Source: Sulfoacidibacillus thermotolerans (GTDB lineage: Bacteria; Bacillota; Bacilli; Alicyclobacillales; SLC66). From it: 64,000 nt of DNA. The position numbers and the translations under genes were made by a program. Positions 20,224 to 26,696 of the stretch are shown piece by piece. The DNA is taken from contig NZ_MPDK01000002.1 in NCBI RefSeq assembly GCF_003144315.1, positions 310,001 through 374,000 of the forward strand, read 5' to 3'. The notes beneath the pieces were generated by a model that did no database searches, was not told the DNA's origin, and saw only the letters and a list, made by a program, of their open reading frames with translations. Position 1 is the stretch's first letter. The number at the start of each line of letters is the position of its first letter.

Positions 20224-20335
20224 CTCTTATCTGCCAGAGCCTAAGCTCTGCTGGAATTGGCACCTTTCCTTTGCTAACGCAAAAGACGGTTGCCGGGCTT
20301 CATCGGGCCAGTCCCTCCGCCACTCTCGATAAGAG
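20224..20335 (-). ncRNA. SAM-I (S-box) riboswitch
   Basis: Minus strand: CTCTTATC (P1 5'), then GAGAGTGGCGGAGGGACTGG, CCCGATGAAGCCCGGCAACC, AAGGTGCCAATTCCAGCAGA and the closing GATAAGAG (P1 3'). All conserved S-box blocks are in order. With SAM bound the terminator at 20177-20206 should form and shut off metX-hom. Confidence 0.97.
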
Positions 20336-20408: not shown

Positions 20409-21224
20409 TTATTTGCGAATCAAAAGCTCATCTGCGCCCAGCAATAATTGTCTCATCCGCGTATGACAGGCATGCATCACTTGGGCAACACGCCACGCAC
20501 TGCGACCCAGTATCCGAACAACGAGTCCATTTTTACTTAACGCACTACATCCGCCATATACATCATCTTCCGAAAATTGATTAAGCAAAGCCTGTAAAGT
20601 AGCTACATGTGTATTCGCAACACGCTCAGAAAGTGCGTAAAACGTTCCAACATGTGTAAAGGAGCCAAACGAGGACGAAACAAATAGAGACTCACGCCTT
20701 GGTTCCAACAAAATTGCATCCCATACGACACACTGCTGCTCCCAATAAACGATAAAACGACTTTCGTAACGCTCAAAACAAAACACTTCTCCCTTACCTA
20801 CACGTCCTGGTGTAAGAATTTCCCCAACCATAGCCGTTGCACCAGACGTCATATAAACTTGCGTCTCTCCCTCAAAAAGACTTCCAGCAAAAGGGACGAC
20901 AGGTTCCGGCATATACTCAAAGACTGCATCTTGCGCCACATAAAACGATTGCATCTGACGACTCGGTTGCAAAGAGGGAGATGGATGTAACTTAGCAGAA
21001 GCTTGATTTGTCAAGTAAAGCTTTGCTCCACTTTTTACTGAACAAACAATCCGTTGTGTATCTCCTCCAAAAAGTCCGGGTGAAGCGTCCATCAAATACA
21101 AAATAAGGCCGCCATCTGCCCGTTCAAAAGGCTTAGCCACTTTTAACGGTGCCTGCTGTTTTGAGACAATTAACCGCGTGCGTCCTTCACGATTCACCAC
21201 AGCCCCTTCCCAACGACCATTCAC
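20409..21224 (-). CDS. ureD: Urease accessory protein UreD/UreH
   Basis: 271 residues. The order [37 protein letters not shown], and [20 protein letters not shown] follows the UreD family (scaffold that binds apo-urease and takes nickel from UreG). [13 protein letters not shown] and a C-terminal arginine-rich region are also typical. Its start overlaps the end of ureG by 4 bp. It is the last gene of the urease operon and ends 70 bp before the divergent-free metX promoter region. Confidence 0.9.
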
Positions 21225-21892
21225 GAGAGCAATGCCGCCCGTTGCGATAAACGCTCTGTCAACCAGGCAACAAGTGATGCAACGCCAACATCAGAAAAAA
21301 GATCAGTCATCACAAAGGGCCGCTCCCCGCGCATTTTTTTCGTGTCATTTTCCATTACGTGCAAATTCACTCGCACATATTTTGCTAAATCAATTTTATT
21401 GATAACCAAGAGATCAGATCGCAAAATTCCCGGTCCACCTTTGCGAGGAATCTTTTCTCCTTGCGCTACATCGATGACATAAATAAAGACATCTACTAAT
21501 TCTGGACTAAATGCAGCAGCTAGATTGTCTCCCCCACTCTCCAAAAAAATGAGGTCTAAATCAGGAAAGCGCTGCTCCAGTTCCGCGATCGCTTCAAGAT
21601 TCATCGAAACGTCCTCACGAATCGCCGTATGTGGACACCCGCCTGTTTCTACACCAAGAATTCTACTTTCTGGGAGCACTCCCGAATTTACTAGAATTAA
21701 CGCATCTTCTTTCGTATAGATGTCGTTTGTAATGACGGCAACACTATACTTCTCTTTTAACTTGGCGCAAAGCTTCTCTACAAGCGCTGTCTTCCCTGAT
21801 CCAACAGGCCCCCCAACGCCAATACGCAGTGGTCGCACATCAGAAATTACAGGTGCCTCCCACTCGTCATGATGATGACCCCCTTCACACAT
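21221..21892 (-). CDS. ureG: Urease accessory GTPase UreG
   Basis: 223 residues. P-loop [27 protein letters not shown], the metal-binding [15 protein letters not shown] (C-P-H), [13 protein letters not shown] and [11 protein letters not shown] (NKxD). It hydrolyses GTP to drive nickel insertion. The N-terminus has [10 protein letters not shown], a short His-rich stretch that may hold nickel, of interest because no ureE is present. It overlaps ureD. Confidence 0.96.
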
Positions 21893-21933: not shown

Positions 21934-22662
21934 CTACGACATAAACAACCGTGAATAGAGCGTTTCATGTCTCATCCCCTGTATTTCGTGAAAGATTGCT
22001 GCATTCGCTAAATGAAAAAAAGCTGGCGGCTGCTTAACTAAATCTAAAGCTATGTCTTCTAACGCAGGAAATAGTGAGGCAAGCGTTTTTTGCCCTTCGG
22101 TTTGACCAATCACCGTAGCGCGTACAGCATTTTGCACGAGTGCATTTACTGCTGAATAGAGATAGGTAGCAATCGCAAGCTTTTGATCGATACCTAGATA
22201 CGCGCATACAAAGCCATGCACGATCGCTCCATTGCCATAACATATGCCTTTACGAATCATGGCATCATACAATTGCAAATGCGAATGTGGATACAATTCT
22301 AATGTCATACGCAGATATTGCCGCCCAATCTTTGTACTGCCCTCGCGTGATTCACGAGCAAGTTTTGAAAGAGTGAGCCGATAATCGAGCAATGCAATGG
22401 ACTGCTCAAATTCAGTGCGCGCCGGTAGATCAGAAAAACGTTCCATGTACTCAGTGACCAAATAATAAGAAAAATACACTCCCGGTGCTTCCATTGTTGC
22501 AAAACTCCCGCGGAGGAGATCCTCTAACCAACGCTGTAAACTATAAACATCGCTCACTGTTTTTTCTGCAAGAGCCGTCTCTAAGCCAAAAGAATGCGAA
22601 AAAGCACCTGTCGGGAAACCCGAATCCGCTAATTGTAAGAGCGGGAGTATACACCCTTTCAC
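21934..22662 (-). CDS. ureF: Urease accessory protein UreF
   Basis: 242 residues, all helical in character. The N-terminal LLQLADSGFPTGAFSHSFGLE is the UreF signature. YGNGAIVHGFVCAYLGID and LVQNAVRATVIGQTEGQ also fit. UreF joins UreD and UreG in the nickel-loading complex. It lies between the fused ureBC and ureG. Confidence 0.92.
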   Translation of the reverse strand: MKGCILPLLQLADSGFPTGAFSHSFGLETALAEKTVSDVYSLQRWLEDLLRGSFATMEAPGVYFSYYLVTEYMERFSDLPARTEFEQSIALLDYRLTLSKLARESREGSTKIGRQYLRMTLELYPHSHLQLYDAMIRKGICYGNGAIVHGFVCAYLGIDQKLAIATYLYSAVNALVQNAVRATVIGQTEGQKTLASLFPALEDIALDLVKQPPAFFHLANAAIFHEIQGMRHETLYSRLFMS

Positions 22663-22715: not shown

Positions 22716-24773
22716 TTAAAATAAAAAATAACGTTGTGTCAGAGGCAATTGCACTGCTGGCTCACAAGTAACGAGTTCCTGATTAACCCGCACCTCATAC
22801 GTTTCCGGATTCACCTCAATCTCTGGCAATGCGTGATTATGGATCATGTCGCGCTTCCCTATCGTTCGGCAGTTTTTTACTGGGAATACCGTCTTCTCTA
22901 GCCCTAATTGCAAATGTACCCCTTGTTCAATCGCTGCTTGCGACAAAAAAGTGAGCGAAGAACGTGGAACAGCTTTACCAAACGCACCGAACATTGGACG
23001 GTATCGCTGTGGTTGCGGCGTAGGAATTGACGCATTTGGATCACCCATGACAGCGTGCGCAATCATCCCACCTTTTAACACCATCTCTGGCTTTACACCA
23101 AAAAAATCTGGTTTCCACAAAACAAGATCCGCCCATTTACCCGGTTCAATCGACCCCACATAATCAGCAATGCCATGAGCGAGTGCTGGATTAATCGTGT
23201 ATTTCGCTAGATATCGCTTGACGCGATAATTGTCATTTGAAGCAGTATCTTCTGGTAACCGCCCGCGTTGCACTTTCATTTTATGAGCCGTTTGCCAGGT
23301 GCGTAGGATCACCTCGCCTACTCGTCCCATGGCTTGTGAATCGGAACTGATCATGCTAATCACGCCTAAATCATGCAAAACATCTTCAGCGGCAATCGTT
23401 TCGGGCCGAATGCGCGAATCTGCAAAGGCCACATCCTCAGGAATGCGACTATCCAAGTGATGACAGACCATCAACATGTCAAGATGCTCTTCGATCGTAT
23501 TGACTGTAAAAGGCCGTGTAGGATTCGTCGAAGAGGGTAGAATATTTGGTTCTCCAGCCAAGCGAATAATATCTGGTGCATGCCCCCCACCAGCGCCCTC
23601 AGTATGGTAGGTATGAATAACCCGTCCACCGATCGCTTCGCGTGTATCCTCAACAAATCCAGCTTCATTTAACGTGTCTGTATGAATAGCGACTTGTACA
23701 TCATAAGCGTCAGCCACTTTCAGACAAGCATCGATTGCAGCAGGCGTCGTCCCCCAATCTTCATGCAACTTTAGGCCAATGGCACCAGCTTGAATCTGTT
23801 CAACCAACACTTCTTGTTCAGATGCATTCCCTTTTCCAAGAAAACCGAGATTTACAGGAAAGGCCTCTGCAGATTCTAACATGCGCCAAATATAAAAAGC
23901 GCCTGGCGTACAAGTCGTCGCATTTGTCCCCGTAGCTGGCCCCGTTCCGCCCCCGATCATTGTCGTAATCCCTGAGCTGATCGCCGCTTCGATCTGTTGT
24001 GGACTAATAAAATGAATGTGCGCATCAATCCCGCCCGCAGTCACAAGCAGACCTTCGCCTGCGATGATTTCCGTCCCAGCTCCGATCACAAGTTGCGGAT
24101 CTACTCGATCCATCGTATCGGGATTGCCTGCTTTGCCAATGGCGACAATTCTCCCATCTCGCACACCAATATCTGCCTTTACAATCCCCCAATGATCGAT
24201 GATCAGTGCATTTGTAATGATCAGGTCGGGTGTCCCTTGAGCACGCGTAGCATGAGAGGACTGTCCCATGCCATCGCGCACCACTTTGCCACCACCGAAC
24301 TTACACTCATCTCCATATACCGTAAAATCCTGCTCTACCTCAATCCACAAATCTGTATCTGCTAATCGCACACGATCTCCCACTGTAGGGCCGTACATAG
24401 CTACATACGATGCCCGCGGCAACTCTACGCCCGCTTGAATCGAAGCCTCAAGGTGAGCTACTTCATCCCCGATTGCGCCATTTGTCATGCCACGGTGCCC
24501 TTTTATCACCTGCCGCCCGCCAAATGCAACAAGTGTCACGGGTTTCTCTTCGCCGGGCTCAAATCGAACTGCAGTTCCGGATGGAATATTCAAACGCATT
24601 CCGCGCGCTTTTGCTCGATCAAATTTAAGTTGGGGATTCACTTCATAAAAATGGTAATGAGATCCAACTTGAACTGGGCGGTCTCCCGTATTCACCACAT
24701 GTACTGTCACGATTTTTCGCCCTTGATTGATTAACACTGGCTCTGCTCGCAATTCATAAGCCCCTGGCTTCAT
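22716..24773 (-). CDS. ureC: Urease beta-alpha fusion (UreB-UreC in one polypeptide)
   Basis: 685 residues in one uninterrupted frame. Residues 1-95 are UreB ([36 protein letters not shown]). A linker at about 96-120 ([19 protein letters not shown]) leads into UreC from about 121 ([20 protein letters not shown]). All nickel-site residues are present: His252 and His254 ([10 protein letters not shown]), carbamylated Lys335 (GLKLHEDW), His337, His364, His390 and Asp478 ([10 protein letters not shown]); the mobile-flap His is in [12 protein letters not shown]. Separate ureB and ureC genes are the bacterial rule, and known fusions (Helicobacter) join gamma to beta. There is no stop or ATG-RBS pair at the junction, so a single product is likely. 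Confidence 0.93.
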
Positions 24774-24802: not shown

Positions 24803-25114
24803 CTAGAGCCTAGGCCGAATAGGCTGGTGTACTGTTACAAGTTTTGTCCCATCTGGAAATGTCGCTTCTACTTGCACCTCTTCAATCATTTCAGCCACTC
24901 CGTCAAGTACATCTTGCTCGTCTAAAATGGTTGCCCCATACTCCATCAACTCCGCGACTGTTTTCCCATCGCGCGCTCCTTCTAAAATTTCATAAGAAAT
25001 AAGCGCAACCGCCTCAGGGTAATTTAACTTCAGTCCACGCTGTTGGCGGCGTCGACTCAAATCTGCTGCCACAACTAACAGGAGCTTTTCTTGTTCACGA
25101 TCCGTTAAGTGCAT
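24803..25114 (-). CDS. ureA: Urease gamma subunit
   Basis: 103 residues (family about 100). [59 protein letters not shown] and [20 protein letters not shown] match UreA in order. It is the first gene of the operon ureA-ureBC-ureF-ureG-ureD on the minus strand; I see no ureE and no nickel permease of the UreH/NixA type next to it. Confidence 0.95.
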
Positions 25115-25433: not shown

Positions 25434-26696
25434 ATGTCAAATTACGAAAATTCTTTTCCAGAAACAAAAAGGCGTCTACACGCCTTGCGCCAATGGCTGC
25501 TGTGGGTTGGCGCATTGGGTCCAGGCATTATGGTTATGTTAGCCGACACAGATGCTGGCAGCGTCATCACTGCTGCCCAATCTGGCGCACAGTGGGGATT
25601 TCGGATGATCCTCCCGCAGATCATTCTGATACCCATGCTTTATGTCATTCAGGAAATCACAGTCCGTCTGGGGATTTTAACGAAAAAAGGCCATGGAGAA
25701 TTAATCCGCGAACACTTCGGAATGAAGTGGGCTTTGCTCTCTGTAAGTACACTTTTTATATCATCTGTCGGTGCATTAATTACCGAGTTTAGTGGAATTG
25801 CTGGCGTAGGTCAACTATTTGGCGTTCCTCCTTTTGCGAGTGTTGGTTTAGTGACCGTGTTACTCATTGTCTTGGGCCTGTCTGGGAGCTATCGCCGCAT
25901 TGAACGCATCGGAATCGCAGTAGGACTGTTTGAGTTGTTTTTTATTGTAGCGGCTTTTTTGGCACATCCAAACCCGCATCAAATTTTCACTGGACTTGCA
26001 TCACTGCCCCTGCAAAACCACAATTATCTCTATTTGTTAGCCGCCAATGTGGGAGCTGTGATTATGCCATGGATGATCTTTTATCAACAAGGCGCTGTCA
26101 TCGATAAGAAGATACAGGATCATCAACTAAAACTTGCCCGTTGGGATACGTTTGGCGGATCCGTTTTGACCCAGTTCCTTATGATCGCAGTTGTCATCAC
26201 GACAGCAGCTACCATTGGGCAGAACCACCCCAATCAACCTTTAAACGATGTTCCGCAAATCGCCCAAGCACTTACACCAGCGCTTGGCGCACAAGCCGCT
26301 AAAATTGTTTTTGGACTTGGGATGGTCGGTGCAAGTTTTATTGCTGCACTTGTTGTATCCATCGCTGGCGCTTGGGGGATTGGAGAAGCTTTTCGACTCA
26401 ATCACAGCCTAAATCACAAAGCATCGGAAGCCAAAGGGTTTTATCTCATCTTTTCGCTTGCGCATATTTTGGGTGCTATCTTCGTTCTCTTTAGTTCAAA
26501 TCTTGTTGTTTTAGCTGTCGACGTCGAAATCATGAATGCGATGCTCTTGCCTATTGTACTCGGATTTTTACTCGTTCTTGAAGCAAAGACGCTCCCTAAA
26601 GAATGGAGAATGCGCGGACCCTATAAATGGACAGTATGGGGTGTTTCTTCTCTCGTGATCTTATTTGGACTCTACATGACCTTTATCTCTCTATAA
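25434..26696 (+). CDS. Nramp-related divalent metal transporter (divergent clade)
   Basis: 420 residues, about 11 transmembrane segments. Helix 1 reads GALGPGIMVMLADTDAGSV in place of the canonical GPGF...DPGN, and helix 6 reads AVIMPWMIFYQQ in place of the usual MPH. The fold and the helix 1/6 positions mark it as Nramp superfamily, but the metal-site residues differ, as in other divergent members whose substrate is uncertain. GAGGGG precedes the ATG by 8 bp. It is divergent from the urease operon, so nickel or manganese uptake is possible by context only. The 3' end overlaps uvrC by 6 bp, tail to tail. Confidence 0.85.
   Translation: MSNYENSFPETKRRLHALRQWLLWVGALGPGIMVMLADTDAGSVITAAQSGAQWGFRMILPQIILIPMLYVIQEITVRLGILTKKGHGELIREHFGMKWALLSVSTLFISSVGALITEFSGIAGVGQLFGVPPFASVGLVTVLLIVLGLSGSYRRIERIGIAVGLFELFFIVAAFLAHPNPHQIFTGLASLPLQNHNYLYLLAANVGAVIMPWMIFYQQGAVIDKKIQDHQLKLARWDTFGGSVLTQFLMIAVVITTAATIGQNHPNQPLNDVPQIAQALTPALGAQAAKIVFGLGMVGASFIAALVVSIAGAWGIGEAFRLNHSLNHKASEAKGFYLIFSLAHILGAIFVLFSSNLVVLAVDVEIMNAMLLPIVLGFLLVLEAKTLPKEWRMRGPYKWTVWGVSSLVILFGLYMTFISL

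Follow-up and report, generated by a model that had tools for sequence, protein, structure and literature searches.

The urease operon in the window, the whole 64,000-nucleotide stretch of Sulfoacidibacillus thermotolerans DNA that was analysed, joins the beta and alpha subunits in a single open frame and carries no ureE. It quite probably encodes an active nickel urease built from a separate gamma subunit and one beta-alpha chain of 74 kDa with a variable linker, and served by a UreG that doubles as nickel donor. This gamma plus beta-alpha architecture lies between the separate-subunit bacterial ureases and the single-chain plant enzymes, beside the known form with fused gamma-beta and separate alpha. 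The separate-subunit and Helicobacter forms are named in the available parts of PMC6737895 and PMC3816311, and the plant form also in the former; no description of a bacterial UreBC architecture came up in searches of open-licence PMC full texts.

The fused chain and its operon

The operon is compact, with the order ureA-ureBC-ureF-ureG-ureD, and profile matches identify all of the maturation genes for UreD, UreF, and UreG. Its features are as follows:

24803..25114, minus strand: ureA, separate urease gamma subunit of 103 amino acids (PF00547, 8.7e-47; NF009712)
22716..24773, minus strand: ureBC, fused beta (about residues 1-101), linker, and alpha (about 116-685) (open frame; Pfam/NCBIfam; AlphaFold2, AF2, model)
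24423..24491, minus strand: UreB-UreC linker, residues 95-117, with no in-frame stop
21934..22662, minus strand: ureF, accessory protein (PF01730, 1.9e-34)
21221..21892, minus strand: ureG, GTPase with an N-terminal Cys/His motif common to 22 other UreE-less loci (TIGR00101, 3.4e-96)
20409..21224, minus strand: ureD (ureH), accessory protein (PF01774, 9.1e-47)

The ureA gene lies upstream of ureBC, and ureG and ureD overlap by four bases. The ureBC frame starts with an ATG at 24773, ends with a stop at 22716, and encodes 685 amino acids with a computed mass of 74.2 kDa, slightly above the band of about 73 kDa that the sequence-only reading had predicted. Matches to PF00547, PF00699, and PF00449/PF01979 all exceed their cut-offs, establishing the presence of the UreA, UreB, and UreC domains. 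Within the fused chain, the Urease_beta domain covers residues 3-99 or 1-101 and the Urease_alpha and amidohydrolase domains cover residues 116/117-685 (Pfam/NCBIfam); UreB is complete, as that reading had held, and the limit it gave at residue 95 falls slightly short. Its central claim, that complete UreB and UreC domains share one frame, is borne out by the 685-residue frame itself and by the frame being open in 15 other Bacillota genomes. Among the best 25 of 26 NCBIfam matches listed, there is a gamma/beta bifunctional model and no beta/alpha model, so that fused proteins may carry the alpha-subunit name alone.

The nickel ligands, which had been reported as all present, are H252, H254, K335, H364, H390, and D478, at an offset of 118 from the Klebsiella aerogenes positions, which we take to be H134, H136, K217, H246, H272, and D360. 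Together with H337 and H438, this set (the nickel ligands, including the Lys to be carbamylated, and the catalytic His) is invariant in the 12 fused proteins and throughout a 103-row alignment. The window urease is one of ordinary predicted chemistry and unusual build: it is not a three-subunit enzyme, as a single frame encodes both UreB and UreC, and it is not of the Helicobacter type, with a gamma-beta fusion and a separate alpha subunit.

A sequencing or assembly error hiding a real stop between ureB and ureC is highly improbable. A single base change would be enough to produce it, and many relatives carry a single in-frame stop at the same place, but the 15 other Bacillota genomes are fused too, with linkers that differ in both sequence and length. 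For the clade, this comparison of sequences excludes error or chance as the source of the fusion. An artefact or pseudogene was rejected on the same grounds, the fusion being found in 16 Bacillota genomes and the active site being invariant.

A second alternative, that two proteins are still made because translation also begins internally near the old ureC start or because a protease cuts the linker, appears improbable. The linker is certainly variable: across six fused genomes of the same order, it is 19-57 amino acids long and has a mean identity of 21%, against 66% for UreB and 78% for UreC, and its cleavage would give back separate subunits. Possible starts also persist, with a TTG remaining at the old ureC start position in the window genome and an ATG in G002, where a further TTG, located 21 codons upstream, has a Shine-Dalgarno sequence of fair strength (-8.0). 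Set against this, a comparison of nine fused genes revealed no conserved start with a good Shine-Dalgarno sequence at the old ureC position, and in G051 the preceding 35 codons include no start codon at all. The starts in or next to the window linker pair at only -4.4 and -4.5, compared with -10.6 for the ureBC start, and the separate ureC genes of the UreE-less relatives L065 and L080 pair at -11.1 and -8.7, respectively. Finally, internal initiation would yield no free UreB.

The single-chain reading also agrees with structure prediction. The AF2 model made from the 103-row alignment has a pLDDT of 88.7 and a pTM of 0.93, and it superposes on jack bean urease (7kns, matched by Foldseek) over 681 residues at 2.0 Å, including both domains, and on 3la4 over 677 residues at 1.8 Å. 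Plant ureases were probably in the AF2 training data, so the superposition indicates compatibility and is no proof. A 12-row input gave a poor model (pLDDT 47.6), and an alignment that included UreB-only rows was set aside, those rows standing at 20-32% identity and being taken as misaligned. Like the single-chain ureases of jack bean and pigeon pea, the predicted protein carries beta and alpha in one chain in the plant arrangement; unlike them, it leaves gamma apart, UreA being a separate ORF. Its linker (from about residue 101 to 116) is also shorter than that of 3la4, where the beta match ends at 242 and the alpha match begins at 275. Helicobacter ureases, in which UreA is gamma-beta and UreB is alpha, likewise reach a two-polypeptide enzyme through subunit fusion, but the opposite junction is joined there.

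The 74 kDa chain would assemble with UreA, presumably as (gamma, beta-alpha)3, and the tether would keep the beta subunit on the catalytic subunit. This bears on a proposal in Marsh 2013 (PMC4009401) that gene fusions tend to conserve assembly order. In the available part of that paper, STRING data have beta fusing with alpha, possibly from single-chain ureases, and beta is the first subunit to dissociate from K. aerogenes urease; because beta leaves first, the urease fusions considered there would not conserve assembly order.

Distribution and origin of the fusion

The fusion is not peculiar to the window genome. The search for UreB-UreC fusions that the sequence-only reading had suggested brought the total, the window genome included, to 23 genomes confirmed by translation, comprising 16 Bacillota and seven gammaproteobacteria (G457, G458, G459, G588, G695, G807, and G825); all fusion searches used the window protein as the query, and distant fusions may escape them. 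Counted with repeats and family searches, the analysis extended to 1,367 genomes. The 16 fused Bacillota genomes span seven family labels, and all of them combine the fusion with the same gene order and a lack of UreE. In the window's order, 14 of the 59 genomes searched have a urease: six are UreBC-fused (G000, G001, G002, G016, G010, and G051), four have three separate genes, three have a gamma-beta fusion, and one is decayed. Within the window's family, all five urease-bearing genomes are fused. As a single order contains separate, gamma-beta, and beta-alpha forms of the enzyme, the costs and benefits of each fusion are directly comparable.

Wider sampling extended the picture. For example, 97 of 398 genomes in a sample of the class matched at E 1e-15, with at least 13 fused, ten of them new, and a phylum sample, also of 398 genomes, held 18 urease-positive genomes with fusion apparent only in the window's own (loci L114, L117, and L118 were inspected and the others judged by the match table). 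A scan of named genomes, covering 80 loci among the matches listed and favouring same-frame loci by its selection, gave at least three fused loci, from an Oceanobacter MAG, Neptuniibacter marinus ATR 1.1, and an Arenicella MAG. In Neptuniibacter's order, 202 of 390 genomes matched at E 1e-100, and at least five among the matches listed are fused, Neptuniibacter included. The best 30 of 165 plasmid records, judged by match rows alone, showed no fusion. Long frames proved a poor guide: the 712-residue frame of G1044 has a stop between UreB and UreC, none of 16 further long-frame or early-match rows from Neptuniibacter's order (L197-L211 and L216) was fused, and triple gamma-beta-alpha fusions suspected in G904, G879, and G863 (frames of 813, 827, and 761 amino acids) were rejected, UreA lying in another frame in each.

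The gamma-beta fusion, earlier described as the Helicobacter arrangement, is not restricted to Helicobacter and also occurs in three genomes of the window's order. Helicobacter-like gamma-beta fusions accompanied by UreE were seen in Bacillota at L009 (G046), L010 (G042), L011 (G057), and L259 (G906). In the decayed urease of G034 (L165, 7049-8254), a gamma-beta frame enters UreC after an apparent internal deletion and is followed by a frameshift; with the deletion and frameshift, this joined frame was rejected as a functional fusion.

Many relatives have a single stop as the only barrier between ureB and an in-frame ureC (same-frame loci are over-represented in the first sample), so the loss of one stop suffices for fusion. 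Loss of the ureB stop where the two genes share a frame is the likely origin suggested by these sequences, and in Bacillota it would have taken place in a bacillar ancestor. On the UreC trees, the fused state changes more than once. With 111 rows, five changes are required to account for the 12 fused ones, and well-supported branches force four of them; the test rejects a single clade of all 12 (p-AU 2.6e-43) and also one of the six gammaproteobacterial fused rows (p-AU 1.1e-9). Phylogenetically, the gammaproteobacterial UreBC fusions have an origin separate from those of Bacillota.

The number of origins within Bacillota is less sharply constrained. A tree of 131 rows requires seven changes for its 22 fused rows. 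Its 16 Bacillota fusions share a supported set (98) of 27 rows with two UreE-bearing ureases (L166 and L259) and nine UreE-less ones of the Paenibacillus type. In the free, quickly built 131-row tree, the 16 do not form one clade, with L166 (separate subunits, UreE-bearing) and L259 (gamma-beta) falling among them. Holding the 16 together gave a likelihood 3.9 higher and was not rejected (p-AU 0.556); a single Bacillota origin is allowed by these trees, not shown by them. Similarly, the six fused genomes of the window's order form one clade in the 111-row tree and are split in the 131-row tree, where G016 groups with another family. Operons also differ under one genus label, G940 (L251) being fused and UreE-less and G1009 (L265) having separate genes and UreE, which suggests transfer or replacement. 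A second frame with the UreA motif was noted upstream in G940.

UreE absence and the supply of nickel

The absence of ureE from the operon, noted from the sequence alone, extends to the rest of the genome (2.87 Mb in 135 contigs, 99.86% complete), where neither UreE_N (PF02814) nor UreE_C (PF05194) found a match at limits at which control genomes did. UreE_C was found in none of the 16 fused Bacillota genomes, of which four are less than 90% complete (G010, 73%; G904, 79%; G051, 82%; G892, 86%), compared with all eight non-fused urease-bearing genomes of the order and 10 of the 13 further non-fused Bacilli examined. The three exceptions carry one genus label and group with Paenibacillus where placed; in Paenibacillus-type operons, UreE is absent though UreB and UreC are separate. 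Conversely, the fused gammaproteobacteria keep UreE (three of three tested, out of seven), so fusion does not replace it. The fusion and the loss of UreE, which had been noted side by side, are separable traits: on this comparative evidence, UreE loss is no consequence of fusion, and the two simply meet in Bacillota.

The window locus combines the absence of UreE with a His-tailed UreG. The tail follows the motif [M/V]-C...H...H...W, in which the start residue is followed by Cys, two or more His, and then Trp. Of the loci whose UreG could be read, 23 of 29 without UreE and none of 73 with UreE carry this motif, UreE being scored within the locus by a purpose-built profile that would miss an off-locus copy. 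Among the first 82 loci, at least two His precede the UreG P-loop in 17 of 19 UreE-less and six of 63 UreE-bearing cases. All 23 motif-bearing loci belong to Bacillota and their UreC rows lie in one tree region, so they represent about one event, not 23. Only three independent pairs exist on well-supported branches, and the association between UreG and UreE is not significant: His content differs in the expected direction in two pairs and not at all in the third, and the Cys motif differs as expected in one and not in the other two. Outside Bacillota, the Cys motif is missing from six UreE-less loci, of which L070 and L073 have no His there either. Three of the 23 motif-bearing UreGs read V-C, presumably from GTG starts. 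In Nitrosospira (L100), whose locus has no UreE, UreG begins MHDLNREHKHNYNW, which resembles the His..W part of the motif but has no Cys.

In nature, Met before Cys is usually removed, and an N-terminal Cys would thereby be exposed. The nickel site of Escherichia coli HypB is formed in this position, with the motif CXXCGC and ligation by the N-terminal amine, Cys2, Cys5, and Cys7 (PMC7055735). HypB and the window UreG are both G3E GTPases with Cys at position 2; UreG lacks CXXCGC and has a single Cys followed by His, and the likeness is one of analogy only.

The suggestion that the His-rich UreG N terminus might help in nickel handling draws support from the tail's conservation among UreE-less relatives in Bacillota and its absence from those UreE-bearing relatives that were examined; the idea that such a UreG may compensate for a missing UreE is already in print. 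Haas 2009 (PMC2770081), in its available part, states that UreE-less systems tend to have His-rich UreG stretches, e.g., in Arabidopsis and mycobacteria, and that these may compensate for the missing UreE. The window system shares the absence of UreE and the N-terminal His stretch with those systems, and it differs from them, as they are described in that part of the source, in three respects: UreG has a conserved Cys as its second residue and a Trp following the His cluster, and beta is fused to alpha. Plants, too, lack UreE and have a UreG with His motifs (PMC10100864, which covers eukaryotic UreG, and PMC2770081, both as far as available). The conserved Cys at position 2 may be what the present sequences add, and no description of this Cys form of the tail came up in searches of open-licence PMC full texts.

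Under the favoured model, UreD, UreF, and UreG would mature the apo-urease, with UreG acting as both GTPase and, through its Cys/His tail, nickel donor in place of UreE; the tail is a small feature that can be tested as a candidate means of getting nickel to urease when UreE is missing. That nickel instead arrives through another chaperone (HypA/HypB or an unrecognised UreE), the tail being a nickel store or irrelevant, is rather unlikely. Of the six fused genomes searched for HypA (PF01155), G016 and G051 have it and might obtain their nickel by that route, and two UreE-less loci do without a His-rich UreG. Yet HypA gave no match in the other four (the window genome, G001, G002, and G010), neither UreE domain was matched in the window's genome, and all 16 fused Bacillota genomes encode the UreG tail. 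Going beyond the favoured model, it is conceivable, if on balance doubtful, that Bacillota possess a "plant-like" module, moving between genera as a unit, in which the beta-alpha chain and a HypB-like, high-affinity nickel site of UreG (the N-terminal Cys after Met removal, its amine, and the His cluster) replace the three-subunit-plus-UreE system, and UreG alone acquires, holds, and delivers nickel; this extension draws on the HypB analogy.

Neighbouring genes and RNA matches

Two transporter genes were considered as partners and rejected. An NRAMP-like gene (25434-26696, plus strand) is divergent from ureA and encodes a protein with atypical TM1/TM6 motifs by eye (ADTDAGS and MPWMIF). Its best solved relative is 7qia, which we take to be a magnesium-type NRAMP-related transporter, and no homologue lies near urease in the neighbourhoods of 14 relatives (6-19 kb each); on both counts, it was set aside as a nickel partner of urease. 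The genome also has one NicO-type nickel/cobalt transporter gene elsewhere (C1:49265-50119), which was rejected as part of the urease module, as it went unmatched in four of the order's six fused genomes. In G002 (L154, 2615-8447), what appears by eye to be a peptide/nickel-type ABC transporter lies upstream of ureA.

Two Rfam matches were also recorded. The first, to RF02514 ("5' ureB sRNA"; 98 bits, 23984-24279, plus strand), is antisense to the UreC part and probably reflects conserved UreC coding sequence only, not an sRNA. The second is a SAM riboswitch (RF00162; 96 bits, 20224-20335, minus strand) between ureD and the next minus-strand gene, which is metX-like by eye.
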